A stretch of DNA of 32,022 bases from Bacteroidia bacterium (lineage in GTDB: Bacteria > Bacteroidota > Bacteroidia > Bacteroidales > VadinHA17): assembly GCA_026391555.1 (NCBI GenBank), contig JAPLEB010000109.1:1-32022 (forward strand), written 5' to 3'. Both the position numbers and the translations under genes were made by a program. Under the pieces are notes generated by a model. That model ran no database searches. It had not been told where the DNA came from and saw only the letters and a list, made by a program, of their open reading frames with translations. Below, piece by piece: positions 4,335 to 26,579 of this stretch. The stretch's first letter is position 1. Each line of letters opens with the position of its first letter.

Positions 4335-5519
4335 TCAGATATATTCAAAAGTCACTTTCTTGAGCCATTTTTCTTCAAGTAGCCGGGCAATTCGTTTTAC
4401 CACTGTACGCCTGATCTCAAGTTCTACTGGCAGATTAGGGTCCTGGTGAGCTATATTGATCCTGGTGCCGATAACGAAATGAATCTCATCACTTTCCATA
4501 ACAAGTCTGACGATCTTATCAGCCGGTCCTTTTCCGAGCCTGACACTGTTATTAAATGTTTTCAGTATTTCATTTACCTTCTGCAGAGTAAGGATTCCTT
4601 CAGTTACAAGGTCAATTCCTTCAAGAAAACTTTCCGGGGGCAGCTCCGGATCTTCGAAGATAAGCTCATCAATAATGGTCCTGTTCAATTCCCTTGCGAC
4701 TATATCTGCTGTAGTACCTCCGCAAAGAATTACTTTTCCCTTGTATCCTTTAATTTTTATAACTAACTCCTTATCTTTTTCTTTTTCGTAGGGAGGGCCT
4801 GTACAGATAAGAAGTTTACGAGGCTCACGGAAATAGATCGTTGCGCAACTAATATCATCCCGTGCCTTATAGTTGTCGTTTTTATGTGCCATGGTAACGA
4901 TTTTTCCGGCAAGCATCATGGCTGAAATAGATGCTTCGCCTGAGACGAGAGAAGCAGCATAGTTTGCTATGTTCTCCCTTTCCCAGCCAAATGGAAATGG
5001 TTCACTACCCATTCCACTTTGCGAGACTCCATCGGAGCAGAAGATTATCCGGTCTTCTTTTTCAGGCATAAAAGTGCAGGTTTTGAGCACCTTCCCCGAA
5101 TGTTTCCCTTTCTCAAGCACAACCTTTTTCCATGAAGGATCAAATATCTGATTGCCTCTCAAGACAACTGATGAAGGGTTGTCATATTCAAGTATGGTAG
5201 CCCGGCCGCTGCTCTCTATATCGATTATTGTAAAAGTGGAATAGCTGATTTTTCTTTCGCTGCAAACCGGCAGGGTATTCATTATTATCTCTGCAATACG
5301 GTCAACCTCTTTATGTTCCTGAGTGAAATTGAGCGCCATTGTTGCAGTGAGCGTGGCGAGTATATTTGCTTTAACCCCATGCCCCATACCATCCGATAAA
5401 ACTGCAATAACCCGGTCTTCTTCTTTTATATAACGGTATAGGAAGACATCACCGGAAATCCTCTCTCCATCGTGGTTCCTCTGCTGGCTGTTTACCTCTA
5501 TGAAAAAGTTTTTATTCAC
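4335..5519 (-). CDS. SpoIIE-type PP2C serine phosphatase of a hydrogenase-sensor operon
   Basis: 394 residues. Residues 1-230 form a SpoIIE/PPM phosphatase fold: GD at 23-24, SDGMGHG at 42-48, SDG at 162-164 and RDDIS at 220-224 supply the Asp residues that bind the two metal ions. Residues 235-394 form a second domain with a CGGTTADIVARELNR segment. I know this kind of C-terminal extension from phosphatases encoded beside sensory [FeFe]-hydrogenases, but not its function. The start lies 6 bases after the stop of the H-cluster/PAS protein, so the two are co-translated. The likely role is output: the H-cluster protein senses H2 or redox state and modulates removal of phosphate from a Ser or Thr on an unknown partner. 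No anti-sigma or STAS partner is encoded in the window. Confidence 0.88.
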   Translation of the reverse strand: MNKNFFIEVNSQQRNHDGERISGDVFLYRYIKEEDRVIAVLSDGMGHGVKANILATLTATMALNFTQEHKEVDRIAEIIMNTLPVCSERKISYSTFTIIDIESSGRATILEYDNPSSVVLRGNQIFDPSWKKVVLEKGKHSGKVLKTCTFMPEKEDRIIFCSDGVSQSGMGSEPFPFGWERENIANYAASLVSGEASISAMMLAGKIVTMAHKNDNYKARDDISCATIYFREPRKLLICTGPPYEKEKDKELVIKIKGYKGKVILCGGTTADIVARELNRTIIDELIFEDPELPPESFLEGIDLVTEGILTLQKVNEILKTFNNSVRLGKGPADKIVRLVMESDEIHFVIGTRINIAHQDPNLPVELEIRRTVVKRIARLLEEKWLKKVTFEYI

Positions 5520-5525
5520 GGAAGA

Positions 5526-7412
5526 TTATTTCAGATTGCTTTTCAGATTGCCTTTTTTTGTTTTATACGACTCAATTATTGAGTTTAGCATTTGTTCAGT
5601 TTCGGAAGCGCCTTCTCCAAGAAGGAATCCGATCTTTTGTACCATTTCAAGGTTTTTCTCAATCACTTCACTTACCCTGTTAGTAACCTCTTCTCCCTGT
5701 ACTTCAGGAGAGTAGAGATCGCGGATTATTGCTCCGCACATCCTGTTCTTTTTGATGGGAAAGATTGAGATATTCAGCATTTTATCTTCAAAATGGACAT
5801 CCTTACTCACAACAGGCTCATCTTCCTTTATAACAAATGTGAACATGTTATATACATTGAATGGGATGAGAGTTTTTATGTCAGCGCCTGCCAGTCCCGG
5901 AATAACATCTGATATCGCCCTGGCATCTTCTCCGATTATGTTGATGAAGCTTTGATTTGAATGGAGAATTTTGAGATTATTGTTCACGATAACCACACCT
6001 GTAGGAAGCTTTTCGAGCATGTTATTCATCATGTCGGAAGCGTTTTGCGCAATCTCTTTTTCCCTCCGGGCAAGCTCTTCCGATTCTTTGAGAGCTTTTT
6101 TTGTTTCAGCCAGTTTCCTGTTGGTCTGCCTCAGGGTTTCAATGTATTCCTGCTTATTGCGAAGATTGAAAGTATGGCACATTTCAGGAACTGCAAGTCC
6201 CTTTGCAACTGTTGAGGCAAAATCGCGGCATGACAGGTATCCACAGGCGCCACAATTTATCTCTTCCCTGGGATTATCTTTACCTATAATTTTAAGTACC
6301 TCATTTATTGCCTCTTCAGGAGGCTCAGGAATTCTTTGGTCATTGGGGGTAAATGTTCTGGAAAAATTGAGCTTCGACCATTTTTCCATATTTTTTTGCC
6401 AGAGTGCCTTATCAAGTTTGCCTACTCTTTTTTCTGCATATCTCCGTACAAGCGCTCTTCTCCTGAACCGTTCATTGTGATGCTCCATTCCCGGTCCAAG
6501 AAGGCAACCATGACAGAAAAAGAGGTTAAAATGATGTTGTATTGTTTCAATATATTTATCGAAATCATTTATTGCTTCAAGGATTTCTTCCTTCCCTGAA
6601 GCTGTAATAACACTGCTCGAAACCATGTCGCGTTTAATTCCACCTGCCTGGATAATTCCGGCAGGAAGAGGGTAGAGGGCACCCCAGTTACCATGAGGTG
6701 GATCGAAATCCGACATTTTTACCAGTCTCTCCTGTATCTTAAATTCATCAAAAAGCTGCCTTAGCTCAATAAATGTCAGAACTCCGTCAACAAGCTTACC
6801 TGAATCATAAATAAGTGATTCATCTTTTGAGTCGATGCATGGCCCGATTTGAACCGTTGCAACTTCAGGTCCGTACAACTCCTTCACAACCATTGCTGTA
6901 GCAATCATTGGAGAGACTAAAGGGGCGAGGTTGGGTACCAGCTCCGGATGGAATTTCTCTATCATTTTAACTATTGAAGGGCAGTTGGCAGTAATTAAGT
7001 ACTTACCTTCTGCTTTAGAGAAAAGCTTTGCATGTGCAGCAGCTATCAGATCAACACCGAATGAATCCTCATGAACATAATCAAAGCCCAGCGACCGGAT
7101 CATTGCAACGAATTTCCGGTAATCAGTAATGTCATCAAACTCCGAAGCAATGCTTGGCTCAATAAGGGCAGCCGTTTTTCTGCCTGATGATAATAATTTC
7201 TTCACATCTTCCCTCGAGTCGCGGAACTCAATAGCACGAGGAGTGCATGAGACATAACATAATCCGCATCCAATACATCTGTCAGGCAGAATATAGGGAT
7301 GTGCCTTCTGAGGCTTTACCTCGATGGCATTGACAGGGCAGACACGCACGCAGGAATATGAATTTCTGCATTTTTCGTCATTTATATAAAGAACAGGTTT
7401 TCTGTTTATCAT
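5526..7412 (-). CDS. hydS: Sensory [FeFe]-hydrogenase (group C-like) with Fes4 and PAS domains
   Basis: 628 residues. Order: two N-terminal [4Fe-4S] motifs (C15, C21, C25 and C46, C49, C52, C56); the H-cluster domain with L1 at ANCPSIVK (Cys144), L2 at IGPCIDSK (Cys192) and L3 at FCHGCLLGPG (Cys300, Cys303); a Fes4-type [4Fe-4S] domain with CGACGYLSC and a distal Cys412; a coiled coil (about 420-460); a PAS domain (about 461-565); and a short helical tail. The four H-cluster cysteines are present. The residue before the L1 Cys, Cys in catalytic enzymes, is Asn143. The L2 Met is Gly190 and the L2 Lys is Ser195. This pattern is typical of sensory enzymes. Unusually, the second Cys of the first [4Fe-4S] motif is Ser18. 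It likely senses H2 and signals through the phosphatase gene that follows. Confidence 0.92.
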   Translation of the reverse strand: MINRKPVLYINDEKCRNSYSCVRVCPVNAIEVKPQKAHPYILPDRCIGCGLCYVSCTPRAIEFRDSREDVKKLLSSGRKTAALIEPSIASEFDDITDYRKFVAMIRSLGFDYVHEDSFGVDLIAAAHAKLFSKAEGKYLITANCPSIVKMIEKFHPELVPNLAPLVSPMIATAMVVKELYGPEVATVQIGPCIDSKDESLIYDSGKLVDGVLTFIELRQLFDEFKIQERLVKMSDFDPPHGNWGALYPLPAGIIQAGGIKRDMVSSSVITASGKEEILEAINDFDKYIETIQHHFNLFFCHGCLLGPGMEHHNERFRRRALVRRYAEKRVGKLDKALWQKNMEKWSKLNFSRTFTPNDQRIPEPPEEAINEVLKIIGKDNPREEINCGACGYLSCRDFASTVAKGLAVPEMCHTFNLRNKQEYIETLRQTNRKLAETKKALKESEELARREKEIAQNASDMMNNMLEKLPTGVVIVNNNLKILHSNQSFINIIGEDARAISDVIPGLAGADIKTLIPFNVYNMFTFVIKEDEPVVSKDVHFEDKMLNISIFPIKKNRMCGAIIRDLYSPEVQGEEVTNRVSEVIEKNLEMVQKIGFLLGEGASETEQMLNSIIESYKTKKGNLKSNLK

Positions 7413-7989: not shown

Positions 7990-8460
7990 ATGGGTGCAGA
8001 TATTGACATAATTCTGAAAAAATACAAGCAGGGAAAAAGAGAGGATCTCATCCCTTTGCTTCAGGAAATACAGGGAGATATGGGCTATCTTTCTGAAGAT
8101 GCTATTGTAAAAGTCGGGAGTTTTTTAGGGTTAAGCACAACAAAGATCTATGGTCTTGCCACATTTTACGACAGGTTCAGGTTCATCCCTTCAGGAAAAA
8201 TTCAGATAAGGATTTGCCATGGCACCTCATGCTTCCTCAATGGGTCGCAGACAATCATTAATAAAATAAAAGAAGAGACTGGTATTTTGCCCGGGCAAAC
8301 AACAAGGGATGGCAATTTCAGTTATGAGATTGTATCATGCATGGGTGGTTGTAACAATGGACCTGTTATAAATGTTAACGGTGAATATCATACCCACATT
8401 AAAGCTGAACAGTTGCCGGAACTGATCAAAAGACTAAAGTATGTTCTTGAAAACGATTAG
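7990..8460 (+). CDS. hydC: HydC: NuoE-like [2Fe-2S] subunit of a HydABC-type hydrogenase
   Basis: 156 residues, the usual length of NuoE/HydC. The N-terminal helical half (1-70) includes the typical GDMGYLSEDA and IYGLATFYDRF segments. The thioredoxin-like half carries one [2Fe-2S] cluster on Cys76, Cys81, Cys117 and Cys121. In characterised HydABC complexes this subunit lies beside the flavin subunit HydB. It is the first gene of the rightward operon, and its stop codon directly abuts the hydB start. It follows a Bacteroidota-type promoter overlapped by Rex-like palindromes. All cluster ligands are intact, in contrast to the related domain at the N-terminus of the neighbouring HydB. Confidence 0.92.
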   Translation: MGADIDIILKKYKQGKREDLIPLLQEIQGDMGYLSEDAIVKVGSFLGLSTTKIYGLATFYDRFRFIPSGKIQIRICHGTSCFLNGSQTIINKIKEETGILPGQTTRDGNFSYEIVSCMGGCNNGPVINVNGEYHTHIKAEQLPELIKRLKYVLEND

Positions 8461-10395
8461 ATGGAAGATTTAAAGACATTCCTAATTGATAAGGTTCTGT
8501 TGTTTGAATCCGATACATTGCCACCGGAAACAGAAAAGTTATTGCAGCAGGTTAGACGCGAAAAACCCGATAAACCTGTGATCTTCGTCTCGTCAGGCAC
8601 AAGCAGTGTCATTGCCGGATCGGAAAAGACCTGGTCTGCAATTGAGAATTATATTAATGAAAATGCACCATCAGCCGGACTAATCCGTGTCGGGTGTACA
8701 GGTCCTACTAATTTTGAGCCTTTGGTCTGTATTCAGATTCCGGGGAAAAATAAGCTATTCTTCAGAAATATAACAGAGGAAAAGGTAGAACCTCTTCTCA
8801 ATGGTGTATTTCATAATGATATAAATAAGGATGATCTGGCCGGTCAGAACGGCACAAAAGGTTTTGAATTGTGGCCCGGAATACCCTTTATGGATGAGTT
8901 GCCATTCTTTGCCAACCAGAAAAGGGTAGTACTTGGTAATTGCGGATGTTACGATCCCGAAAGTATTGAAGAATACATTGCCCGTGGAGGATACCGTTCA
9001 TATATCAAAGCAATAAGACATTATACTTTTGAAGAGGTTTGTGATATTATTGAAAAAAGCGGTCTGAGAGGAAGAAGCGGTGGCGGATATCTTACAGGAC
9101 TCAAGTGGAAACATGCCCTTAACACAACTTCAAATGCAAGGTATCTTATTTGTAATGCAAAGGAAAGCGACCCGGGAGCTTTCACCGACAGAACCATTCT
9201 TGAAAGCGATCCGCACCGCCTCATTGAAGGGATTGCTATTGCCTCTTACGCGATTGGAGCTTCGAATGCTATTGTATTTATGAGATCAGGTTCCGATAAT
9301 GCATTGAACAGACTTCAAAAGGCAATCGACAGAGCCAGAGAATATGGTCTCTTCGGACACAATATTTTTTCAAGCGGCTATAACCTCGATGTCGTAATCC
9401 GAATTGAACCAGGAGCTTTTGTCTGTGGAGAAGAGACAGCTCTGATAAACACTCTTGAAGGAAAAAGGGGAATGCCCCGGCTTAAACCTCCATATCCAAC
9501 CACTGCAGGACTATTTGGCAAGCCAACAGTGATTAACAACGTTGAGACGCTTATGAATGTCCCCCTGATAATGCAGAACGGACCGGAATGGTTCCGTACA
9601 TTGGGAACAGAAAACAGTCCGGGCACAAAAGTATTTGCCGTGGCAGGAAAAGGCCGTATGTCAGGTGTGGTAGAGATTGAAATGGGTACTACAATCAGGA
9701 CAGTTCTGGAAGACATTGCTGATGGTATAAGGGAGGGAAAAGAGTTTAAAGCCATACAATTAGGAGGATCATCAGGCTCTTTTATCACCGGCGAAAACCT
9801 CGATATTGCAATAGATTATGACGAACTCAAAGAAAAGGGGATAGGAATGGGTGCCGGTGGATTCGTGATTATCGATGAGAACACCTGTATGGTCGACCTT
9901 GTGAGGTATTACATGGAATTCATTCGTAATGAGAGTTGTGGCAAATGTATCCCTTGTCGTGAAGGTACTGGCAGGATGCTTGAAATTTTGGAAAGTATCA
10001 TAAGAAAGCCTTTAAACGAAGAGTCGGGAACAACCCTCGAACGGTTTAAAGGTGTCATGCAACTCGAAACAATTGCATCGGTGATGAAGGACACATCACT
10101 GTGCGGTCTGGGTCAGACAGCTCCAAATCCTTTCATAAGTGCTCTCAAAAACTTCAGAGATGAGTTTGAAGAACACATATTCGACAGGAAGTGCCGGGCC
10201 AATATCTGCAGGGGGTTAAGAACATTTTCCATTGACGTGGATAAATGTACCGGATGCACAGCATGTGCTTCCAAATGTCCTGTGAATGCGATTTATGGAA
10301 CTCGACTTCAGCCATTCTTCATAGTTGAAGAAAAATGTATTGGCTGTGGTATTTGTTTCGATATCTGTAAGTTCAGTGCAATCAATGTTAAATAG
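8461..10395 (+). CDS. hydB: HydB: NuoF-like FMN/NAD(H) subunit with C-terminal ferredoxin domain
   Basis: 644 residues. Domains: thioredoxin-like (about 1-115), FMN/NAD(H) Rossmann region with GLRGRSGGG (201-209), CNAKESDPG (231-239) and CGEETAL (322-328), SLBB, a [4Fe-4S] site on C493, C496, C499 and C548, then two [4Fe-4S] clusters (C596, C599, C602, C606 and C626, C629, C632, C636). This is the layout of flavin-based HydB subunits that join NAD(H), ferredoxin and H2. Oddities: in the N-terminal domain Ser44, Ser49 and Thr83 stand where three of four [2Fe-2S] cysteines belong, with only Cys79 kept; and the flavin-site text NADExxPG has Lys234 in place of Asp. NAD(H) use is likely but these changes make the electron route uncertain. 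Genes on both sides are contiguous. Confidence 0.92.
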   Translation: MEDLKTFLIDKVLLFESDTLPPETEKLLQQVRREKPDKPVIFVSSGTSSVIAGSEKTWSAIENYINENAPSAGLIRVGCTGPTNFEPLVCIQIPGKNKLFFRNITEEKVEPLLNGVFHNDINKDDLAGQNGTKGFELWPGIPFMDELPFFANQKRVVLGNCGCYDPESIEEYIARGGYRSYIKAIRHYTFEEVCDIIEKSGLRGRSGGGYLTGLKWKHALNTTSNARYLICNAKESDPGAFTDRTILESDPHRLIEGIAIASYAIGASNAIVFMRSGSDNALNRLQKAIDRAREYGLFGHNIFSSGYNLDVVIRIEPGAFVCGEETALINTLEGKRGMPRLKPPYPTTAGLFGKPTVINNVETLMNVPLIMQNGPEWFRTLGTENSPGTKVFAVAGKGRMSGVVEIEMGTTIRTVLEDIADGIREGKEFKAIQLGGSSGSFITGENLDIAIDYDELKEKGIGMGAGGFVIIDENTCMVDLVRYYMEFIRNESCGKCIPCREGTGRMLEILESIIRKPLNEESGTTLERFKGVMQLETIASVMKDTSLCGLGQTAPNPFISALKNFRDEFEEHIFDRKCRANICRGLRTFSIDVDKCTGCTACASKCPVNAIYGTRLQPFFIVEEKCIGCGICFDICKFSAINVK

Positions 10396-10400
10396 TCTAT

Positions 10401-12122
10401 ATGCTTTTTACAATACAGGTAAATAATAAAAAGATAAAAGCCGAAAAGGGAGAGACAATCCTTTCAGCTCTTAATCGTAACGGGATTATTATACCTACTC
10501 TCTGCCGGATGAAGGAGTTTACCCCCACAGGAGCCTGCAGGATGTGTGTTGTTGAAGTAGAAGGTCGTGACCGTCTGGTAACAGCCTGCTCACAACCGGT
10601 TGAGGAATGGATGAAAATAAAAACCCATTCACCAAGGGTGATCATGGCAAGAAAAACAATTGTGGAACTGCTGCTTTCAAATCATCCCGACGATTGCCTC
10701 TATTGCGACAGAAACCTTAACTGTGAACTGCAGCGCCTTGCGGAAGAACTTAATATAAGAGAACGTCGTATCCGCGGAAGGAAAATTAAACCTCGTCTCG
10801 ACCAGTCGAGCCCGGCCATTGTGAGGGAACTTTCGAAATGCATCCTCTGCGGAAGATGTGTAAGAGTTTGTGAAGAGGTAATAACTTCAACCTCCCTCGA
10901 TTTTATTAATAAAGGAAGAGAGACACACGTAGGCGCTGCAATGGATCGGGATTTCAACTTCTCGAGCTGTATCCACTGCGGGCAATGTGTGTTGGTTTGC
11001 CCTACCGGAGCGCTTCATGAAAAACATAATATTACAGAAGTTCAGGAATACCTTAATAAACCTGATATTATTAAAGTAATTCAGTATTCTTCAATGGTAG
11101 TTTACGGAATAGCTGAAGAACTTGGAATGAGGTACACAAAGGAATTTGATAGGATACTGAATGCCATATTGCGTAAGATAGGTTTTGATAAGGTATTTAA
11201 AACAGGTACGGGTACCGATATATGTATTACTGAAATTACAGGACAGCTAGCTGATAAGATTGAAAACAAGGTGGATACACCATTATATATTTCTGCCTGC
11301 CCTGCTTGGGTTAAGTTCGCTGAGCAGTTCATTCCTTCACTTATCCCGCAACTTTCGACAGTTAAATCGCCGCAACAGATTACAGGGGTATTAATAAAAA
11401 CACTTGTCGCCGGCCAGTTGGGTGTAAAGCCGGAAGAGATTTTTTCAGTTTCTGCAACTCCATGCATAGCAATGAAATTTGAAGCCCGGCGAGATGGAAT
11501 GATGCGTAAGGGGATCAGTGATGTAGATTCTGTTCTGACAGTAAGGGAACTGGCCAGGCTTATCCGGTTATATGGTATAGACACCACAAATATTGAGCAT
11601 GAGCCGGCCGATGAACCGATGGCAGGGAGAAGCTCCTCTGCCGTACTGGCTGAAGTGTCAGGGGGATTAGCTGAAGGAGTTATACGATCATACCATTTTA
11701 TGAAGCTAGATAAAGAGCCTGACAAACATCTTTTTAAAAAGCTTCGTTCAGGCGGTTCATTCAGAGAAACAACAGTGCAGGTTGGAGAAATTGAGGTAAA
11801 AATTGCAGTTGTGGATGGGCTGACAGGTCTTGAAAAGTTAAAAACTTTCCTTGCATCCGGGGAAAAATATGACCTGGTGGAAGTGATGACCTGTCCGGGT
11901 GGATGTGTACATGGAGCAGGCCTGCCTTTTAATACTTCAAAGGATGAGATTAAAAGCAGGTCGAAACTGGTATATCAGGCTGATGATACAGAAGCTATTA
12001 ATCTGCCTTGCAAATCACCATCCCTCATTAATCTGTATGGAAAGCATTTAAAGGGAAATAGTGACATTGCAGATAAAAAGATATTTTTTACTCATTTTGA
12101 GAAAAGAAATGTATTATTATGA
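10401..12122 (+). CDS. hydA: HydA-like [FeFe]-hydrogenase subunit with altered active-site surroundings
   Basis: 573 residues, co-linear with C. pasteurianum CpI. The N-terminus has a [2Fe-2S] ferredoxin domain (C35, C46, C49, C63), a His-Cys3 [4Fe-4S] site (H95, C99, C102, C108) and two [4Fe-4S] motifs (147-157, 190-200). The H-cluster ligands Cys300, Cys355, Cys498 and Cys502 are present. However, L1 reads ISACPAW, so the proton-transfer Cys299 is Ala. L2 reads ATPCIAMKFE, so Met353 is Thr and Lys358 is Met. Glu279, Glu282 and Arg286 are Ile, Gln and Lys; Ser319 is kept. It lacks the extra C-terminal [2Fe-2S] domain of T. maritima HydA. With HydB and HydC it should form a trimeric complex, but normal H2 turnover is doubtful. 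Context and maturases argue that the H-cluster is assembled. Confidence 0.9.
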   Translation: MLFTIQVNNKKIKAEKGETILSALNRNGIIIPTLCRMKEFTPTGACRMCVVEVEGRDRLVTACSQPVEEWMKIKTHSPRVIMARKTIVELLLSNHPDDCLYCDRNLNCELQRLAEELNIRERRIRGRKIKPRLDQSSPAIVRELSKCILCGRCVRVCEEVITSTSLDFINKGRETHVGAAMDRDFNFSSCIHCGQCVLVCPTGALHEKHNITEVQEYLNKPDIIKVIQYSSMVVYGIAEELGMRYTKEFDRILNAILRKIGFDKVFKTGTGTDICITEITGQLADKIENKVDTPLYISACPAWVKFAEQFIPSLIPQLSTVKSPQQITGVLIKTLVAGQLGVKPEEIFSVSATPCIAMKFEARRDGMMRKGISDVDSVLTVRELARLIRLYGIDTTNIEHEPADEPMAGRSSSAVLAEVSGGLAEGVIRSYHFMKLDKEPDKHLFKKLRSGGSFRETTVQVGEIEVKIAVVDGLTGLEKLKTFLASGEKYDLVEVMTCPGGCVHGAGLPFNTSKDEIKSRSKLVYQADDTEAINLPCKSPSLINLYGKHLKGNSDIADKKIFFTHFEKRNVLL

Positions 12123-12140: not shown

Positions 12141-14102
12141 ATGTTGGTTTACACCATAAAAGAACTTTGCCGTACTTGTTACACCTGCGTGAGGGAATGT
12201 CCAGCCAAAGCCATCCGTATTGTAGGTGGTCAGGCAGAGGTTATTGATGAGAGGTGTATCGCATGTGGTAATTGTACAAAAGTATGCAGCCAGGGTGCAA
12301 AGGTCTTTCTGAACACAACCGACCGGGTAGTGAAACTTCTGGAAAATGATTCCAGGGTTGCAGCCATTATTGCTCCGAGCTTTCCGGCAGAATTTTTTGA
12401 TATACCCGATCACCACGTTCTTACCGGCATGATAAAGTCACTGGGATTTGAATATGTGGCAGAGGTCTCTTTTGGTGCCGACCTTGTTGCTGACAGGTAC
12501 AAAAAACTTGTGTCAGAAAATAAAAATTATTATATCTCATCTGATTGTCCTTCAATTGTTAAATACATAAAACTCTATCATCCGGCTCTTGTCGATAACC
12601 TGGCTCCGATTGTCTCTCCGATGGTGGCAATGTGCAGAGTTATTCGGGAAAAATATGGTAAGGATACCCGGGTTGTTTTTATAGGGCCGTGTATAGCGAA
12701 GAAAGCTGAAAGTACTGAAATAGATGAGGCTATTACATTTACTGAATTGAGAGAAATGCTGGCTCACAGGGGTATCACTCCGGAGAACAGTAAGCCATTG
12801 GATTTTGACCAGCCCGTTGGAGGAAGAGGAGCCATTTTTCCTGTTGCCCGTGGATTGCTTCAGACAGCAAAGATCAGCGATAACGCTATTACCGGTAATA
12901 TTATCGCTGCTGAAGGGAGGATTGATTTTCAGGGTGCATTAAAGGAATTTGAAGCAGGGTTAATAAAAAACCAGCATATGGAACTGCTTTGTTGCGAGGG
13001 TTGCATTATGGGTCCGGGATTGTCAAAAAACGGAAAGCAATACAACAGACGGGCACTCGTAAGTTCTTATGCCAACAGTAAGATGCAGAATATCGATTCT
13101 GACAGTTGGCAAAAGTCATTTGATGAGTTCGTGGAGCTAGACCTTTCCTTCCGTCATAAACCTGAAGATCACCGGGTTGATATCCCGGACGAAAATGATG
13201 TGAACGAGGTTCTCATTAAGATGGGCAAAAAGACAAAGAAGGACCAGCTCGATTGCGGTGCCTGTGGTTACGAAAGCTGCGTGGAACATGCAATAGCTAT
13301 TAAAAAGGGTCTTGCAGAAGTAGAGATGTGTCTTCCATACACTATCGAAAAGTTGCATAAATCGGTAAAAGATCTTGCTTTGTCAAACGAGAAACTCTCC
13401 TCTATGAAACAGGCCCTGAAACAATCGGAAAAGCTCGCTCATATGGGTCAGCTTTCGGCAGGTATTGCTCACGAGCTTAATAATCCCCTGGGTGTTGTAA
13501 TAATGTACAGCAACATACTTCTGGAAGAATCCTCTGCAGAAGATCCTGTAAGAGAGGATCTTAAACTTATCGTGGAGCAGGCTGGAAGATGTAAGAAAAT
13601 TGTTGCCGGGTTACTCAATTTTGCAAGAAAAAACCAGGTAAACCATCAATTGGTAAGTATTAAAAAGCTTGTTAATCATAGTCTTGAAAGTCTGATTATT
13701 CCTGAAAATGTAAAAATCAATATTTCCGATTTTACAACCAACCCGGAAGCTATGCTCGATTCGGAACAGATGATGCAGGTTCTGACCAACCTGATCAAGA
13801 ATGCGATCGACGCTATGCCGGGAGGGGGAATTATAGATATTAAGCTGGAAGATACTCTCGGTGATGTTATCATAACTATTAGCGACACCGGAACAGGAAT
13901 AAAGGAAGAAGACAGGGTTAAGATTTTTGAACCATTTTTTACCACTAAAGGTATAGGGCATGGTACTGGCCTGGGACTTGCAACCGCTTATGGGGTTGTC
14001 AAGATGCATAAAGGTCAGATTACCGCTGAATCGAATAACGACCCGGAAAAAGGGCCAACAGGGACAAGCTTTAAGATTGTGTTACCCAGAAGGAAAGAAT
14101 AG
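12141..14102 (+). CDS. Sensory [FeFe]-hydrogenase fused to a histidine kinase
   Basis: 653 residues. Order: two [4Fe-4S] motifs with all ligands (C10, C13, C16, C20 and C39, C42, C45, C49); an H-cluster domain with L1 SDCPSIVK (Cys136), L2 IGPCIAKK (Cys184) and L3 CCEGCIMGPG (Cys285, Cys288); a Fes4 domain (CGACGYESC); a short coiled coil; HisKA with phospho-acceptor His444 in AHELNNPL; and a HATPase with N-box NLIKNAIDAM, SDTGTGI and GTGLGLA. There is no PAS domain and no membrane segment, so it is a cytoplasmic one-piece H2/redox sensor kinase, comparable to kinase-linked group C enzymes. Asp135 replaces the proton-transfer Cys and Gly182 the L2 Met. It lies 18 bases after hydA and before two receiver genes, its probable phosphorylation targets. 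Confidence 0.93.
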   Translation: MLVYTIKELCRTCYTCVRECPAKAIRIVGGQAEVIDERCIACGNCTKVCSQGAKVFLNTTDRVVKLLENDSRVAAIIAPSFPAEFFDIPDHHVLTGMIKSLGFEYVAEVSFGADLVADRYKKLVSENKNYYISSDCPSIVKYIKLYHPALVDNLAPIVSPMVAMCRVIREKYGKDTRVVFIGPCIAKKAESTEIDEAITFTELREMLAHRGITPENSKPLDFDQPVGGRGAIFPVARGLLQTAKISDNAITGNIIAAEGRIDFQGALKEFEAGLIKNQHMELLCCEGCIMGPGLSKNGKQYNRRALVSSYANSKMQNIDSDSWQKSFDEFVELDLSFRHKPEDHRVDIPDENDVNEVLIKMGKKTKKDQLDCGACGYESCVEHAIAIKKGLAEVEMCLPYTIEKLHKSVKDLALSNEKLSSMKQALKQSEKLAHMGQLSAGIAHELNNPLGVVIMYSNILLEESSAEDPVREDLKLIVEQAGRCKKIVAGLLNFARKNQVNHQLVSIKKLVNHSLESLIIPENVKINISDFTTNPEAMLDSEQMMQVLTNLIKNAIDAMPGGGIIDIKLEDTLGDVIITISDTGTGIKEEDRVKIFEPFFTTKGIGHGTGLGLATAYGVVKMHKGQITAESNNDPEKGPTGTSFKIVLPRRKE

Positions 14103-14156: not shown

Positions 14157-14552
14157 ATGAAGAAGAGTGATTTTACAATACTGGTAGTTGATGATGATCC
14201 TGATTATCTTTTCCAGACAGTATTTAACCTGGAGAAGGCAGGATACAAGACAATGGCCGTTGAGAGCCAGGCAGAGGCTGAGGCGGTAATTGCCCGGTTC
14301 AAACCTCATCTGGCAATATTCGACCTTATGATGGAGAGTGACGACAGTGGCTTTATTTTGTGTTACAAGATAAAGAGAAAATATCCGGACGTGCCGGTTA
14401 TTCTGGCAACAGCGGTATCGCACGAAACAGGGTTGTCCTTCAGTATCGATTCAGAACAGGAAAAGTTGTGGATCAGGGCTGACAGGTATCTTGAAAAAGG
14501 TATCAGACCTGAGCAGCTTGACCAGGAGGTTATGAAACTCTTAAAACTTTAA
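14157..14552 (+). CDS. Stand-alone response-regulator receiver protein
   Basis: 131 residues, a single receiver domain with no DNA-binding or enzymatic output. The acidic pocket is VDDDPD (11-16), the phospho-acceptor is Asp56 in AIFDLMM, the switch Thr is Thr85 and the conserved Lys is Lys114. Between beta strands 4 and 5 there is a longer than usual segment (about 88-108, SHETGLSFSIDSEQEK), which may make a contact surface. It sits 54 bases after the H-cluster kinase and 1 base before a receiver-kinase. The likely role is phosphate transfer between them; partner choice is inference. Confidence 0.88.
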   Translation: MKKSDFTILVVDDDPDYLFQTVFNLEKAGYKTMAVESQAEAEAVIARFKPHLAIFDLMMESDDSGFILCYKIKRKYPDVPVILATAVSHETGLSFSIDSEQEKLWIRADRYLEKGIRPEQLDQEVMKLLKL

Positions 14553-14553
14553 A

Positions 14554-15690
14554 ATGGCTGTTTTAAAAGTACTTGTTATTGATGATGAACCAGGGATACG
14601 TTCAGGTGTATCCCGGATACTGAATAATTTTCATGTTACTTATCCATTTATGGATGAGGATTATACGTTTGAAGTTACCGAAGCAGGAACAGGCGAGGAG
14701 GGTATCATAATGCTTGAACGGGATATGCCGGATATCCTTTTACTGGATAATAAATTACCCGGAATTCAGGGGGTCGATGTACTGGAGTATATCAGGAAAA
14801 GAAATTATGATATTGTCGTAGCAATGATCACATCTTATGCTTCACTCGATGTGGCAATAAGGGCTACCCGCGATGGAGCCATTGATTTCATTCCGAAACC
14901 ATTTACTCCGCAGGAACTTAAATCGAGTATTGAAAACATAACTAAACAGCAGTATCTGAAGAGGATTACTCATAAGTTGAAGCAGGAAGGGAAGAAGATC
15001 AGATATCAGTTTCTCTCTGTTCTTTCGCATGAATTGAAGGCTCCTCTGAATGCTCTGGAAGGCTATCTCAGGATGATGCAGGAGAAGCAGGCCGGCGACA
15101 GGATTGAGGATTATGCAACTCCCATCGAAAGATCGCTTCAAAGGATACAGGGTATGAGAAGTCTTATTATGGATCTTCTTGATTTTACAAAAATACGACT
15201 TGAAAGAAAAGAAGAAAAAATTCAGGAGGTCAATCTTACAGAAGTGGCTTCAGAGGCAATAGTTACTGTTCAACCTTATGCAATCCAGATGGATGTGACT
15301 ATTAATCTCGATGTACGATCCGATGCTATCATTATGGCCGATCCTGACGATATGGAGATTGTTTTTAATAATCTAATTTCGAATGCAGTTAAGTACAACA
15401 AAGTTGGAGGGAAAGCAGAAATTACTATCGATAGTTCTGATAGCGATGCAATTCTTATCTTTTCCGATACGGGTATCGGCATCACAAAAAATGATACAGA
15501 AAACCTGTTTGCCGAGTTTGTAAGGATAAAGAACGAAAAGACACGAAATATCTCTGGCAGCGGACTTGGACTCTCAATAGTTAAAAAAGTTGTTGAACTT
15601 TATCATGGCACTATTAATGTTGATAGCACACCTGATGTTGGAACAATATTCACAATCAGATTACCAAAAAAAACAGTAACAATTAATTGA
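14554..15690 (+). CDS. Receiver-histidine kinase hybrid (receiver at the N-terminus)
   Basis: 378 residues. The receiver domain (1-125) has DDEPG at 10-14, phospho-acceptor Asp65 in LLLDNKLPG and Lys115 in PKPF. After a helical linker comes HisKA with His159 in LSHELKAPLN, then a HATPase with NNLISNAVKYN, SDTGIGI and GSGLGLSIVKK. Having the receiver before the kinase suggests that an upstream phosphate signal controls its kinase activity. There is no membrane segment. It follows the stand-alone receiver by 1 base and precedes rex by 5 bases. A cascade from H-cluster kinase to receiver to this kinase fits the order, but the final output protein is not encoded here. Confidence 0.9.
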   Translation: MAVLKVLVIDDEPGIRSGVSRILNNFHVTYPFMDEDYTFEVTEAGTGEEGIIMLERDMPDILLLDNKLPGIQGVDVLEYIRKRNYDIVVAMITSYASLDVAIRATRDGAIDFIPKPFTPQELKSSIENITKQQYLKRITHKLKQEGKKIRYQFLSVLSHELKAPLNALEGYLRMMQEKQAGDRIEDYATPIERSLQRIQGMRSLIMDLLDFTKIRLERKEEKIQEVNLTEVASEAIVTVQPYAIQMDVTINLDVRSDAIIMADPDDMEIVFNNLISNAVKYNKVGGKAEITIDSSDSDAILIFSDTGIGITKNDTENLFAEFVRIKNEKTRNISGSGLGLSIVKKVVELYHGTINVDSTPDVGTIFTIRLPKKTVTIN

Positions 15691-15695
15691 AAATC

Positions 15696-16322
15696 ATGAT
15701 TAAACTACCAGGAAAAACCGTAGAAAGACTAAGCGAATACAGAAGGTCACTTCTGGAATGCCTTAATGAAAAGAAAAACTTCATCTTTTCTCACGATCTG
15801 GCTGCCCGTCTTCACATTACTGCCGTACAGGTCAGGCGCGACCTGATGCTGATTGGTTATTCGAGTGTCCTCAGAAAGGGATATGATGTGAGGGAGCTTA
15901 TTGATGCGATTGGAAAGATCATCGATTCGGAAGAGAGCATGAATGTTGCGGTAATTGGAATAGGAAACCTTGGAAGAGCCGTAGCAGGTTATTTTAAGGG
16001 CAAACGATCAAAACTTAACCTGGTCGCATCGTTCGACAATGATCCACAGAAGGTCAATAAGGTTATTTCAGGAGTGAAATGTTATCCTTACAATGATATA
16101 GAAAGGGTGATGAAAGAGCTTGATATCAGGATAGCCATTCTTACTGTTCCACCCGATTTTGCCAGGGAAATATCAGAAGAAGCAGTCCGCTTTGGAATAA
16201 AAGGTATTCTCAATTTTACTACTATTCCTTTAAACGTTCCTTCAGGTGTCTACCTCGAAGAATATGATATGATAACCTCTATCGAGAAGGTAGCTTATTT
16301 TGTAAAAGAGAATAAAATTTAG
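15696..16322 (+). CDS. rex: Rex, redox-sensing transcriptional repressor
   Basis: 208 residues from ATG at 15696. A TTG nine bases earlier is in frame, but the ATG fits the usual Rex length and start better. The N-terminal winged helix (about 1-75) includes RLSEYRRSLL and the recognition region HITAVQVRRDL. The Rossmann domain starts with AVIGIGNLGRA (85-95), which binds NADH or NAD+. Rex normally represses fermentation and hydrogenase genes when the NADH/NAD+ ratio is low. Two Rex-like palindromes overlap the promoter of this operon at 7909-7943, so autoregulation and control of hydCBA are likely. The gene is in the same run of closely spaced genes. Confidence 0.94.
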   Translation: MIKLPGKTVERLSEYRRSLLECLNEKKNFIFSHDLAARLHITAVQVRRDLMLIGYSSVLRKGYDVRELIDAIGKIIDSEESMNVAVIGIGNLGRAVAGYFKGKRSKLNLVASFDNDPQKVNKVISGVKCYPYNDIERVMKELDIRIAILTVPPDFAREISEEAVRFGIKGILNFTTIPLNVPSGVYLEEYDMITSIEKVAYFVKENKI

Positions 16323-16337: not shown

Positions 16338-17258
16338 ATGAAAATTTTCAGAAACTTTAAAGATGCAAAGGTTATCAGAAATCCTGTTGTAACAACCGGA
16401 TCCTTCGACGGGGTTCACATCGGACATAAAACAATACTTAACCGGCTTAAAATGCTGGCTGAGAAGCATGATGGAGAGTCGGTGCTCATTACCTTTGACC
16501 CGCATCCAAGAAAAGTGCTCTACCCCGATACTGCAGGGAAAGATCTGAAACTGATTAATTCACGGGAGGAAAAACTGGAGCTCCTCGAGAAAGCAGGCCT
16601 TAATAATGTTATAATCATAGAATTCACCAGGGAGTTCTCAAAAGTGACGAGCGAAAAGTTTGTCAGAGATTTTCTTCATGGTATACTGCATGCTAAGGTA
16701 GTTGTTGTTGGATTTAACCATCATTTTGGATTTAATAAAGAAGGTGACTATAAACAACTATGGGCGTGGCAGGGGAAATATAATTTTGAAGCAGAAGAGA
16801 TTCCGGAACAGGAGGTTCAGCACGAAACAGTAAGTTCAACAAAAATACGCCAGGCAATAAGTGAGGGATATATTCAGAAAGCAAATGCCTACCTCGATCA
16901 CTATTATATTATTATGGGGAAACCAGAAAAATATTTCTGTGAAGAACCTTTCGAACTGCCTCCTCTAGTAAAAATCCCACTTACAGAAGAATGTAAACTT
17001 CTCCCATCACAGGGGATATATGCAGTCTCAGTGGAGAGCGGAGCTGTTTATTCAAAAGGAATGGCAATAATATACAGGAAACCTGAGGAGACAGCTGAAG
17101 TTCTCGTAAACATTTTTGATGATCTTCTCTTTCCTCTAAAAGAAAGAATGATCCTGTACTTTCACAAAAAGATTCATGGCGCTGTAAATCTTTCCGATTT
17201 CAGAACCACTTTAAGGATCAACTTAGCAAAAGAGGAGATAACGGACCTCATTTATTGA
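16338..17258 (+). CDS. ribF: RibF-like FAD synthetase with a degenerate riboflavin-kinase domain
   Basis: 306 residues, normal RibF length. The nucleotidyltransferase domain (1-190) is intact: GSFDGVHIGH (21-30) carries the HxGH-type motif, ITFDPHPRKVL follows, and VSSTKIRQAI gives the STxIR motif. The C-terminal domain keeps LPSQGIYAVSV and the FRTTLRI-like end of riboflavin kinase, but the ATP-binding segment that normally reads G-x-LGFPTAN is missing; that stretch reads KYFCEEPFELPPLV. It therefore probably adenylates FMN to FAD but cannot phosphorylate riboflavin, or has another role. It sits 15 bases after rex, in an operon whose hydB product needs FMN. A complete RibF is expected elsewhere in the genome. 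Confidence 0.82.
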   Translation: MKIFRNFKDAKVIRNPVVTTGSFDGVHIGHKTILNRLKMLAEKHDGESVLITFDPHPRKVLYPDTAGKDLKLINSREEKLELLEKAGLNNVIIIEFTREFSKVTSEKFVRDFLHGILHAKVVVVGFNHHFGFNKEGDYKQLWAWQGKYNFEAEEIPEQEVQHETVSSTKIRQAISEGYIQKANAYLDHYYIIMGKPEKYFCEEPFELPPLVKIPLTEECKLLPSQGIYAVSVESGAVYSKGMAIIYRKPEETAEVLVNIFDDLLFPLKERMILYFHKKIHGAVNLSDFRTTLRINLAKEEITDLIY

Positions 17259-17322: not shown

Positions 17323-18747
17323 ATGAGGTTTTCTCCTGAAAAACTGAGCATTCCCGATCAACGGATGAAACCATTCATTGATCCTGAAGAGATATGGAAT
17401 ATTATTAATAACACAAAACCTGAAAGGCTGAGGGTAAGGGATGTTATTGCAAAATCGCTCGATAAGCAAAGGCTTACTATGGAAGAGACTGCAGTTCTGG
17501 TAAATGCAGTCGACACAGACCTGGTTGATGAGATTAAACAGGGGGCACACGAACTGAAACAGAGAGTTTATGGGAACAGGATAGTTCTTTTTGCTCCGCT
17601 CTATGTTGGTAACAGATGCACCAATAACTGTAAGTATTGCGGTTTCAGGACTTCCAATGAAGATGCTATACGTAAAACATTGAGCGATAATGAGATCATT
17701 CAGGAGGTGGAGGCACTTGAGGATAACGGACAAAAGAGGCTAATTCTGGTTTATGGAGAACATCCCGATTACTCACCAGAATATATTGCTCATACTGTCA
17801 AGTTAGTATATGGGGTCAAGAAGGGACATGGTGAGATAAGAAGAGTGAACATTAATGCGGCTCCTCTTGATATTGAAGGTTTCAGAATTGTTGGGGAATC
17901 AGGCATCGGAACCTATCAGGTCTTTCAGGAAACTTATCATCCGGAAGCATATAAATGGTATCATCTGGGAGGCAAAAAGAGAGACTATGAATGGCGTCTG
18001 ACATCACTCGACAGGGCGCAGGAAGCCGGTATTGATGATGTCGGAATCGGAGCGCTATTCGGACTATATGACTGGAGGTTTGAGGTTCTTGGACTTTTAC
18101 GTCATACCAATCATCTTGAAGCATGTTATAATGTCGGACCGCATACAATATCGTTTCCACGGATAAAAGATGCCGTAAGCCTGAACCTTGATAAAAAATA
18201 CGAGACAAGCAATGATGATTTTAAAAAACTGGTTGCAATCCTCAGGCTTGCTGTTCCTTACACGGGATTGATTCTTACTGCCCGCGAAGCTCCTGATGTG
18301 CGCAGAGAAGTACTGCAATATGGTGTTTCACAGATTGATGGAGGAACAAAACTGGAACTTGGATCATATTCAGATTCAAAAAACGAGGAACAGAACCTGA
18401 ATCGTGAACAATTTAAGATAAGTGATGCACGATCTCTGGCTGAGGTAATCGACGAGCTGCTGACAAACGATTATTTGCCATCATTCTGTACTTCGTGCTA
18501 TAGAATGGGACGTACCGGTGAACATTTCATGGAGTTTTCAGTTCCGGGTTTCATCAAAAGGTTTTGCACGCCAAACGCTATACTTACTCTTTCAGAATAT
18601 ATCTGCGATTATGCACAGGGAGAGACTGTTGATAAAGGTTGGAATGCAATTGAAAAAAACCTCAAAAAACTCGATAATGAAGTTGCCGGGAGTACCAGGG
18701 AGAAGATTGAGAGGATTAAACTAGGGGAGAGAGATTTGTATTTTTAA
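17323..18747 (+). CDS. hydG: HydG, H-cluster radical SAM maturase (CO/CN- synthon formation)
   Basis: 474 residues, full length. The radical-SAM [4Fe-4S] motif is Cys99, Cys103 and Cys106 in NRCTNNCKYCGF. The C-terminal motif that holds the auxiliary cluster is Cys389-x2-Cys392 with Cys415 (FCTSCYRMGRTGEHF, then KRFC), the arrangement special to HydG and absent from ThiH. HydG splits tyrosine to p-cresol, CO and cyanide and delivers an Fe(CO)2(CN) unit for the [2Fe] part of the H-cluster. Its presence with hydE shows the cell can build H-clusters for the three H-cluster proteins of the locus. It follows the RibF-like gene by 64 bases that contain a -7-like box. Confidence 0.96.
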   Translation: MRFSPEKLSIPDQRMKPFIDPEEIWNIINNTKPERLRVRDVIAKSLDKQRLTMEETAVLVNAVDTDLVDEIKQGAHELKQRVYGNRIVLFAPLYVGNRCTNNCKYCGFRTSNEDAIRKTLSDNEIIQEVEALEDNGQKRLILVYGEHPDYSPEYIAHTVKLVYGVKKGHGEIRRVNINAAPLDIEGFRIVGESGIGTYQVFQETYHPEAYKWYHLGGKKRDYEWRLTSLDRAQEAGIDDVGIGALFGLYDWRFEVLGLLRHTNHLEACYNVGPHTISFPRIKDAVSLNLDKKYETSNDDFKKLVAILRLAVPYTGLILTAREAPDVRREVLQYGVSQIDGGTKLELGSYSDSKNEEQNLNREQFKISDARSLAEVIDELLTNDYLPSFCTSCYRMGRTGEHFMEFSVPGFIKRFCTPNAILTLSEYICDYAQGETVDKGWNAIEKNLKKLDNEVAGSTREKIERIKLGERDLYF

Positions 18748-18937: not shown

Positions 18938-19462
18938 ATGATAAAGGTTCTTGGTATAAAAATCATTGACAGAATTAAAGAAGCCGGTCTTACGCAGGTT
19001 ATTCTGTCACGTCATGCATCTGTCATTACAACACGTCTGGGTTTTCATGAGGTAACTGATTCAGTCTGCAGTCGCGAAGCTTGTATAATTCTTCATCTTA
19101 ACGGTGATCCGGCTGATACAGATAAACTTTCATCAGAGTTGGAAGCACTCGGAGGTATTGATATCCGGGAGATGACCTTTACCGCTGAAAAGGAAACCTT
19201 AAATATTAATTCAGTAAACAGCAGTGTGGAAATTCTTGGTATTCTTGTTGAAAGGAATATTGACGTTATTGTATCTGTACAGAAACTCCTGACTTCTTAT
19301 GGTTGCAATATCCGCACCCGTTTGGGTGTAAATGAGGTATTCTTCGGTGAGCCTGCCGGACTGATTATTCTCGAGTTGAAAGGAGATGAAAAGCAGCGTA
19401 TTTTGCTCGAAAATGACCTGAAAGCGTTAAAACAGGTTCACGTCAGAACGATGGTCTTTTAG
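18938..19462 (+). CDS. Double-domain TM1266-type hydrogenase-system regulator
   Basis: 174 residues formed by two similar halves. Residues 1-83 begin VLGIKIIDR and run through TTRLGFHEV, ACIILHLNGD and GIDIREMTF. Residues 94-174 begin EILGILVERN and run through NIRTRLGVNEV, GLIILELKGD and VHVRTMVF. Each half matches the single-domain TM1266 family, about 80 residues with an ACT/NikR-like ferredoxin fold, annotated as a putative iron-only hydrogenase system regulator and usually encoded among hyd maturation genes. Here it lies between hydG and hydE, consistent with that. Fusion of two copies in one chain is unusual to my knowledge. The ligand is unknown. Confidence 0.85.
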   Translation: MIKVLGIKIIDRIKEAGLTQVILSRHASVITTRLGFHEVTDSVCSREACIILHLNGDPADTDKLSSELEALGGIDIREMTFTAEKETLNINSVNSSVEILGILVERNIDVIVSVQKLLTSYGCNIRTRLGVNEVFFGEPAGLIILELKGDEKQRILLENDLKALKQVHVRTMVF

Positions 19463-19514: not shown

Positions 19515-20612
19515 CTAATGCCTCCTTTTGTCATAGTGTTTTGAATCGCCCCATTCGCCATAAATTACCTCTGCATCAGCAAGGCTGACCCTTGCCTCAA
19601 GACAACTCTGGCAATCTTCAGCTGAATCGTCTGTACATGGCTTATTATCATATAGTTTATAGCTGTCGCGGTATTTGCCAGGGGTTATATTGGGCATAAG
19701 GATATTTGCACCGATCTTAACAGCTTTTTCCCTGCCGATAGGATCAATAGCCTGAAGAGCAGTAGCTGCAACAATATTAATATCTTTCATCATAATCCTG
19801 ATGACGGCAATCATTTTAAGCGTGAGATCAAACCTCTCTTTCAGGGGCATCAGATTTTCAGAATGTTTAATAAGAGGTGTATCAGCATGTTCAATATAGG
19901 GACCCATGCCACACATGTCAATATTGAAATCTTTCATAAAGAGCAGGTCTCCTGCAAGATCATCTAATGTCTGAAAGGGTAACCCAATCATTACGCCTGT
20001 ACCTGTCTGGTAACCTATATCCTGCAGGTTTTTAAGACAATCCATTCTCCGGTTGAAATTATGTTTTGAATCATTTGGGTGTATCTTGCTGTATAGAGTC
20101 TGGTTTGTTGATTCAACACGCAGCAGATAGCGGTGGGCGCCTGCATTGTACCATCTCTTGTAAACCTCCGGTTCCTGTTCTCCGACAGAGAGTGTTATTC
20201 CCAGTTCACCATTGGATAGCTCTTTTATCTTATTGAGAAGATTTTCTACACGGTTTGCAAATAAACCACCTTCCAACTCTCCCGACTGAAGCGCTAAAGA
20301 TCCATAACGATTGTCGTATGCAAATTTTGCTGCTGCCAGTATTTCATCATCCGAAAGGTTGTATCTTTTCAGGTTCTTGTTTCCTTTTCTGATCCCGCAA
20401 TAAAGACAATCTTTGCCACAAATATTTGAGAATTCAATTAATCCCCTGAACCATACCTTATTGCCAATATATTTTTTTTTAATTTCAGATGATTTTTTGA
20501 AAAGAAGAGTTCTATCTTCTGCTTCAGATTCAAGGAGTCTGATAATATCGGTTTTCGAAAAATCGACCCGTGTCAGTATCTCATTAATTGTATTTTCAAT
20601 CTTTCTATTCAT
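19515..20612 (-). CDS. hydE: HydE, H-cluster radical SAM maturase
   Basis: 365 residues, typical HydE length. The radical-SAM motif is Cys65, Cys69 and Cys72 in NICGKDCLYCGIR, followed by LQSGE, GITLSVGEQEP and YLLRVESTN, characteristic of HydE and BioB-like barrels. HydE acts on the HydG-derived iron synthon to assemble the diiron core of the H-cluster. It lies on the opposite strand, convergent with the TM1266-type gene and 52 bases from it, with its own promoter. HydF, the third maturase, is absent from this window and must be encoded elsewhere for the system to work. Confidence 0.95.
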   Translation of the reverse strand: MNRKIENTINEILTRVDFSKTDIIRLLESEAEDRTLLFKKSSEIKKKYIGNKVWFRGLIEFSNICGKDCLYCGIRKGNKNLKRYNLSDDEILAAAKFAYDNRYGSLALQSGELEGGLFANRVENLLNKIKELSNGELGITLSVGEQEPEVYKRWYNAGAHRYLLRVESTNQTLYSKIHPNDSKHNFNRRMDCLKNLQDIGYQTGTGVMIGLPFQTLDDLAGDLLFMKDFNIDMCGMGPYIEHADTPLIKHSENLMPLKERFDLTLKMIAVIRIMMKDINIVAATALQAIDPIGREKAVKIGANILMPNITPGKYRDSYKLYDNKPCTDDSAEDCQSCLEARVSLADAEVIYGEWGDSKHYDKRRH

Positions 20613-20695: not shown

Positions 20696-20808
20696 CCTCA
20701 CCCCAACCCCTCTCCTTTGAGGAGAGGGGCTAAAATGCATGTAATGTTTGAGTTACACTCCTTCTCCTTAAGAAGAAGGAGCATGCCTTCCGGCAGGCGG
20801 GGATGAGG
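20696..20808. repeat. Dispersed-type palindromic intergenic element
   Basis: Three nested hairpins lie in 113 bases. The first has a 9-base stem CCCCTCTCC/GGAGAGGGG with a five-base loop (20707-20729). The second has the stem CTCCTTCT/AGAAGGAG (20758-20781). The third is GCCT/AGGC around TCCGGC. The outer ends, CCTCACCCC (20696-20704) and GGGGATGAGG (20799-20808), are near inverse copies. This resembles mobile, non-coding palindromic repeats common in Bacteroidota genomes. The 301-base gap 20613-20913 holds this element and the hydE promoter, and I see no gene in it. Confidence 0.75.
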
Positions 20809-20913
20809 AGACTTACTTCTGATGACTATTATTATGTTTCGTACTATTTATTTTTATTATCTTGCTTTCATAATATCAGATCAGACAGTGGTTGCAAGTT
20901 GTTATATATCAGA

Positions 20914-22971: not shown

Positions 22972-23075
22972 TCTTCTTCTGGTTTTTGCTATCCAATAAA
23001 TTTTATGTTTATATTCGAACCTTCATTTTCTTCCATAGCACAGACTGATAGCATGTTTTTAAGTTATTAATTAAT

Positions 23076-23083
23076 TATTTTTG
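23076..23083 (+). promoter_or_regulatory. Candidate -7 promoter box before the aminotransferase operon
   Basis: TATTTTTG fits TAnnTTTG and lies 37 bases before the ATG at 23121, in a strongly AT-rich stretch. The -33 position is not well matched. Confidence 0.4.
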
Positions 23084-23120
23084 AAAGTTTTTATTAAGAA
23101 ATTAAGTCATTTCGAATAAA

Positions 23121-24449: not shown

Positions 24450-24460
24450 TTAAAGATAAA

Positions 24461-24685: not shown

Positions 24686-24692
24686 GCAGCCA

Positions 24693-25763: not shown

Positions 25764-25766
25764 GAT

Positions 25767-26546: not shown

Positions 26547-26579
26547 TCAATACATATTAATTAAAAAATTCTTGAGAAA

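Follow-up and report, generated by a model that had tools for sequence, protein, structure and literature searches.

What relays protons to the H-cluster of a HydABC-type [FeFe]-hydrogenase that has lost the residues of the canonical pathway? The question is raised by the hydA gene of contig C49, which is the whole 32,022-base stretch analysed here (the window) and belongs to a draft genome of 3.5 Mb (completeness 96%, contamination 4%); near relatives are metagenome-assembled genomes named Bacteroidales or Bacteroidota. The earlier note on this DNA had read the product as a HydABC-type catalytic subunit with a dismantled proton route. Alignment with Clostridium pasteurianum CpI bears out the residues on which that reading was based: the numbering of the two proteins coincides at I279, Q282, K286, A299, C300, S319, Q325, T353, C355 and M358, and E279I, E282Q, R286K, C299A, M353T and K358M are all real, with S319 kept. 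Misaligned positions are ruled out, because the motif stretches are gapless against CpI, the T. kivui, A. woodii and T. maritima HydAs and many relatives. The four cysteines of the H-cluster [4Fe-4S] are likewise present (C300, C355, C498 and C502, the last two corresponding to CpI 499 and 503) and are kept in all readable members of the variant clade described below. The accessory-cluster cysteines are invariant in a 48-row family alignment, in which His95 is at least 90% conserved.

The protein matches the H-domain family PF02906 at 219.3 bits (cut-off 22.1), and a Pfam search places neither PF04060, an FeS domain, nor a PAS domain in it. Its best PDB match by phmmer is the T. kivui HydA (E 1.1e-128), followed among solved HydAs by those of the A. 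woodii and T. maritima HydABC complexes and then by CpI. The AlphaFold model has 8a6t_A as its best structural match (TM 0.63) and a mean pLDDT of 73.5, with values below 50 at residues 121–207 and block means of 91–95 for residues 401–430. The T. kivui (8a6t), A. woodii (7q4v) and T. maritima (7p5h) systems share the domain order, the accessory clusters and the hydC-hydB-hydA row of the window, whereas their HydAs have E279, E282, C299, M353, K358, F417 and G418 where the variant has Ile, Gln, Ala, Thr, Met, Ala and Glu.

Features of the window and of its hydA reading frame, with codons numbered after CpI.
Feature	Coordinates	Strand	Remarks
SpoIIE-type phosphatase domain protein	4335..5519	-	PF07228; syntenic
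Second sensor-type [FeFe]-hydrogenase homologue	5526..7412	-	N299, G353, S358
HydC, NuoE-like [2Fe-2S]	7990..8460	+	PF01257; syntenic
HydB, NuoF-like, FMN domain, C-terminal 2x[4Fe-4S]; N-terminal [2Fe-2S] ligands lost	8461..10395	+	
Variant HydA	10401..12122	+	573 aa; [2Fe-2S], His/Cys [4Fe-4S], 2x[4Fe-4S], H-cluster domain
Ile279 codon (CpI Glu279)	11235..11237	+	Clade: I31 L25 M6 V3 T3, never Glu, n=68
Ala299 codon (CpI Cys299)	11295..11297	+	Defining residue of the 68-member clade
Thr353 codon (CpI Met353)	11457..11459	+	T 60, S 8 of 68 clade members
Met358 codon (CpI Lys358)	11472..11474	+	Defining residue of the variant clade
Ala417-Glu418 codons (CpI Phe417-Gly418)	11649..11654	+	Proposed new carboxylate relay; E65/D2 at 418
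Sensor-type [FeFe]-hydrogenase fused to histidine kinase	12141..14102	+	D299, G353, K358 kept
Single-domain response-regulator receiver	14157..14552	+	PF00072; syntenic
Receiver + histidine kinase protein	14554..15690	+	PF00072, PF00512, PF02518; syntenic
Rex redox-sensing repressor	15687..16322	+	
RibF-like FAD synthetase	16338..17258	+	PF06574
HydG maturase	17323..18747	+	TIGR03955 483.7 bits, above cut-off
CPF_0552/TM1266-type putative regulator	18938..19462	+	
HydE maturase	19515..20612	-	TIGR03956 350 bits, above cut-off

The residue set is shared by a clade, as the earlier note had proposed to look for. The alignment comprises 151 family sequences, of which 146 remain once near-identical rows are taken out, together with four solved HydAs and 23 canonical ones from Bacteroidales; 68 of the 146 distinct family sequences, all from one Bacteroidales family, combine Ala299, Thr or Ser353 and Met358, the group being defined by this set itself. 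Positions 279, 299, 353 and 358 are fixed as non-canonical in the clade, and 282 (Gln in 40 members, Glu in 10) and 286 (Arg in 24, Lys in 24) still vary. S319 is kept in 67 members and Q325 in all 68, and M497 and E495 in every one that is readable. In quick trees with SH-aLRT support, the 17 members included form one group at 100%; support is 58% (13 members) after the addition of two H299/A358 sequences, which join at 100%. Since 68 distinct sequences share the set, it is no sequencing error. NG86 estimates of dN and dS for the window hydA are 0.056 and 1.69 against L038, 0.110 and 1.73 against L049, and 0.146 and 3.0 against L062, dS being saturated and not computable in the other three of the six pairs; the gene is under purifying selection. 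A sequencing or assembly error or a pseudogene is thus ruled out by conservation in the clade, the intact frame and the low dN/dS.

Close matches to the variant (E ≤1e-200) are found in 71 of the 117 genomes, and in 4 of the 15 genera, of the source genome's family, a count of similarity, with residues read for the fetched loci only. Of 295 genomes sampled across the order, 94 contain a family member (E ≤1e-140). Searched in 395 Bacteroidota genomes, six of them of the same order with the source included, the P2 pattern gives three matches, one being the source genome and two being short frames that are unrelated; a backward control pattern gives one. Other phyla were covered by one contig scan, which reveals close relatives only because it used exact peptide patterns and the best 80 of 122 relatives were kept. 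Among the titles and abstract openings listed in a literature search, whose coverage stopped short of subscription papers, none concerns the A299/T-S353/M358 clade.

Variant and sister sequences form one family apart from the canonical HydAs at 100% SH-aLRT, and within it the variant clade and genus g196 form one group, also at 100%. Early-branching family members are canonical at the positions followed. The full set of E279, E282, C299, M353 and K358 is kept in 28 of 76 non-variant family sequences; the others account for losses of E279 in 46, Cys299 in 24 (13 of them to Asp), M353 in 12 and K358 in 9. To judge from these sequences, the canonical proton route has been eroded stepwise, in several lineages. 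In published work on [FeFe]-hydrogenases, strict conservation of the Cys299 pathway and the two methionines is taken as a rule of group A (PMC11803613). Two further family members, L097 and L098, combine Asn299 with a Glu at 353, normally a methionine, and no kinase-fused sensor gene was found beside either.

What the clade has gained lies at position 418. An acid is present there in all 67 readable members (one row is truncated), against Gly in 23 of 23 canonical Bacteroidales HydAs; the 76 other family sequences have Gly (46), Ala (21), Ser (7), Asn (1) or Asp (1). The neighbouring Phe417 has become Ala in 60 of the 67, and columns at least 90% fixed in the clade and differently fixed in canonical HydAs include 299, 358 and 418. 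Outside the clade, an acidic 418 occurs among the 146 family and 23 canonical sequences in L171 and L203 only. L171 is the only other A299 sequence (A299, S353, R358, D418); its place in the trees, apart from the clade, suggests a second origin of the A299/D418 pairing, but it joins a long branch there at 88–89% support. L203 pairs H299 with E418, and L204 has H299, A358 and Ser418. These are the two genomes read from genus g196, both with H299, T353 and A358, an unusual intermediate within the same HydA family.

Glu423, at the relay site of group D, is found in four other family members, none with Cys299 (L147 with D299, L182 and L189 with S299, L188 with R299), and an acid at 418 or 423 is found in none of the 75 Cys299 sequences (52 family, 23 canonical). 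In the variant clade, position 423 is Leu (29), Ile (22), Met (13), Phe (2) or Tyr (1), so the Glu423 of group D is absent. A replacement relay is not always seen, since L204 has Ser418 and 12 of the 13 D299 sequences are acid-free at both 418 and 423, although the latter is expected if Asp299 itself relays. A test of independent pairs for Cys299 against an acid at 418 or 423 yields four supported pairs and is not significant (p 0.5 to 1); origins are few, and the independent pairs too few for such sign tests. Fitch reconstruction on one tree gives seven losses of Cys299, with 45% of the family branch length non-Cys299, and all five acid gains fall on non-Cys299 branches (p about 0.02), a rough, one-tree value that is generous because a stem branch carrying both changes was counted as non-Cys299. 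Phylogenetic coupling of 299 and 418 is therefore suggestive only.

Published yardsticks, taken here from the available parts of the cited papers, indicate what such changes may cost. In CpI, C299A/S and E279A/Q each leave less than 1% of activity, E282Q leaves 8.2%, E282A about half, and C299D variants keep 30–80% (PMC6226526); slow or altered turnover, as the earlier note proposed, is thus a fair inference from the mutant losses at C299, E279 and E282. In groups C and D, position 299 is mostly Ala and most of the group A pathway is missing (PMC10407848, PMC11803613). The group D enzyme TamHydS of Thermoanaerobacter mathranii has A137, S191 and K126 at positions 299, 353 and 286; its experimentally supported relay residue, E252, takes the place of a group A Val and lies 3.4 Å from ADT in a homology model, and in E252V/D H2 oxidation is nearly abolished (PMC10407848, PMC11803613). 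E252 is placed at CpI 423 by way of the GGE codons in the printed primers. TamHydS is assembled (semisynthetically) and yet slow (PMC11803613, PMC10407848), and in group D a hydroxyl residue in place of Met353 is well conserved (PMC8163306). Thr353 is also found in C. pasteurianum CpII, an enzyme with altered catalytic bias that is highly active and called prototypical (PMC10055695). In the group C enzyme TmHydS of Thermotoga maritima, Y223 (CpI 417) is said to be near the ADT amine but not needed, and restoring the cysteine in A131C lowered activity, so relay logic is not simply transferable between groups (PMC10055695).

The variant resembles these sensor-type enzymes in part. With TamHydS it shares Ala299, Ser/Thr353, Lys286 (in the window protein) and a new Glu in the 417–423 loop, and group C/D genes are, in the literature available, often in operons with group A enzymes; it differs in having Glu418 and Met497, whereas TamHydS has Glu at 423, Leu497 and another domain architecture. 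With TmHydS, an enzyme reported as of low activity, it shares Ala299 and the loss of Met353, although TmHydS is a separate sensor protein with Gly353, Ser497 and Tyr417. The variant has the Ala299 and the small or hydroxyl residue at 353 typical of groups C and D, and lacks the extra C-terminal FeS cluster domain and the PAS module (group C). In Hydrogenedentota BfuABC-T clusters, A3 genes lie beside group C3 sensor hydrogenases with PAS/kinase domains, and the general motifs listed are P1 TSCxP and P2 MPCxAKK (PMC11406978).

The class of the complex turns also on HydB. The HydB encoded on contig C118 of the same genome, the one canonical HydB used in the comparison, has four N-terminal [2Fe-2S] cysteines at window columns 44, 49, 79 and 83. 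Only that at 79 is kept in variant-clade HydB (52 of 54 rows), none of the 54 having Cys at 44, 48, 49 or 83; sister-clade HydB has Cys at 48, 79 and 83 in 18 of 19 (one gap). From residue 476 onward, the HydB cysteines are intact in all 53 of the variant loci fetched. A new Cys appears at HydB residue 90 in 44 of the 54 variant-clade rows. The loss of the N-terminal ligands makes bifurcation by the variant complex doubtful, given the argument in the part of PMC11406978 available that the full B1–B5 cluster set appears necessary for it. The description HydABC-type holds by sequence, domains and gene order, with the reservation that HydB is without its N-terminal [2Fe-2S] ligands. HydA is nearest to A3 HydAs and adjoins hydB and hydC, but the Cys299 proton pathway, Met353 and Lys358 are absent, and for want of the N-terminal [2Fe-2S] the HydB cluster set is incomplete. 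NCBIfam group A cut-offs are missed as well (TIGR02512, 346 against 405.95; NF040763, 571.2 against 765). The complex is best regarded as a variant of the A3-type HydABC kind, with a group D-like pocket logic and not a member of group D.

The same genome encodes two more HydAs whose relay residues are canonical, one on C118, where the genes run B-A-C, and one on C159, where they run C-B-A and HydB is short. The second canonical HydA that the earlier note suggested seeking is thus present, and the variant as sole hydrogenase of the cell is ruled out. By hand count, the genus has the variant in 31 of 36 genomes, source included, and in 30 of these 31 it is accompanied by one or more other HydA matches (E ≤1e-60). 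As other HydAs coexist with it in genome and genus, the variant is probably auxiliary. Ser replaces the nominal [4Fe-4S]H ligand at CpI position 300 (TSCSP) in 12 of the 23 canonical HydAs (L001, which is G000:C159, L116, L125-L128 and L130-L135) and in the A. woodii HydA; Ser at 300 is described as common in A3 enzymes (available text of PMC11406978).

The core gene order is found again in both variant and sister loci among the best 80 of 122 relatives, though many of these 80 run into a contig end, and some lack HydG or HydE or have it elsewhere. HydF is on contig C97 of the source genome. Both sensor-type hydrogenases flanking HydABC contain PF04060, and Pfam detects no PAS domain in the upstream one, whose PAS-like region comes from a partial NCBIfam match. 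With each ORF assigned to its best-matching query paralogue, Lys358 is present in 52 of 53 variant-clade rows of the kinase-fused sensor hydrogenase (one unreadable), and its equivalent in none of 46 relatives of the other one (Ala 27, Ser 9, Ile 5, Asn 4, Val 1). The same contig holds a CoA-ligase-like ATP-grasp protein, an aminotransferase and a three-gene 2-oxoacid:ferredoxin oxidoreductase-like set with POR domains at 20803–27134, the last a possible ferredoxin source. At the contig end, 401–3951 encodes two adjoining BNR-repeat neuraminidase-like proteins.

Several readings of this enzyme can be weighed against one another. Were its substitutions without functional meaning, the enzyme would be an ordinary one, as T353 in the active CpII and the half activity left by E282A would allow; this is very unlikely, since C299A and the loss of E279 are severe in CpI (PMC6226526, available text) and the set has changed together and become fixed in the clade. 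The earlier interpretation, in which the H-cluster is assembled and the proton route broken without replacement, leaving a very slow, biased or sensing enzyme, is a serious alternative, if a rather unlikely one. The near-complete loss of activity in the CpI C299 and E279 mutants (each below 1%, PMC6226526), the prevalence of Ala299 in sensor groups C and D, and the two sensor-type homologues that flank the complex, one of them kinase-fused, all fit it; an acid at 418 in 67 of 67 readable members and 0 of 23 canonical enzymes, and the low dN/dS, do not.

The cofactor itself bears on a further alternative. H-cluster-type cysteines, all four of them, are also kept in proteins such as Nar1 that have no diiron site, and Lys358 normally contacts the distal cyanide ligand of the H-cluster. 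The diiron subcluster might accordingly be unbound, leaving HydA a purely electron-carrying or structural part of a complex that works as a ferredoxin:NAD oxidoreductase or as a scaffold: Lys358, Phe417 and mostly Ser232 are lost, and 418 is now charged. Met497, Gln325, Pro354 and the bridging Cys503 nevertheless stay fixed, and the locus also contains HydE and HydG, though these serve other hydrogenases too; this reading is quite unlikely. A potential salt bridge of Lys358 is mentioned in the available text of PMC6100070, and a literature search on K358 with cyanide and on G418 gave no match. Catalysis of some other small-molecule reaction by a modified H-cluster would agree with a pocket altered on several sides (230, 232, 299, 353, 358, 417 and 418), but no substrate or partner gene points to one, and the conserved neighbours are H2-related or signalling; it is the least probable reading, and would be surprising.

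The preferred explanation is that the proton relay has been re-sited. The chain Cys299-Glu279-Ser319-Glu282-Arg286 is broken, as the earlier note held, but the clade has gained a fixed Glu/Asp418, and since this acid adjoins 417 and lies five residues from the group D relay at 423, the route may have been moved and not dismantled; that note had overlooked G418E and F417A, the existence of relatives, and the missing N-terminal cluster of HydB. In outline, the HydABC-type complex would be NAD(H)-linked, its H-cluster subunit having abandoned the Cys299/Glu279 route for Glu/Asp418, which would take over as first proton relay beside the ADT amine. The new carboxylate would occupy room freed by the change of Phe417 to Ala, and the onward path would possibly run through the retained Glu495. 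Thr353 and Met358 would retune the diiron site. The enzyme would probably be slow or strongly biased relative to the two other HydAs of the cell and, with the adjoining sensor hydrogenase-kinase, would serve to sense or fine-tune the H2/NADH balance, not to handle the main H2 flux. The kept cysteines, Met497 and Gln325 and the maturases present argue for H-cluster assembly; an acid in 67 of 67 readable clade members and 0 of 75 Cys299 sequences, the low dN/dS and HydE/HydG in the locus count for the explanation. The loss of Lys358 counts against it, as it could impair cofactor binding. The whole combination of an assembled H-cluster, a relay at Glu/Asp418, retuning by Thr353/Met358, slow or biased turnover and a regulatory role is put forward tentatively, at somewhat less than even confidence. 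A stronger version is unlikely: Glu/Asp418 would be a third, previously undescribed site of the first relay, besides Cys299 and the group D Glu423, and an A3-type HydA would have independently evolved a sensor-like pocket, the whole NAD(H)-linked HydABC complex thereby sensing H2 or redox state in coupling with the hydrogenase-kinase encoded just downstream.

The family forms a graded natural series, from the full canonical set through loss of E279 to Asp, Ser, Asn, His, Arg or Ala at 299, with acids at 418 or 423 in some members. This series lets the control of rate, bias and reversibility by the protein shell be tested with natural enzymes on one scaffold.
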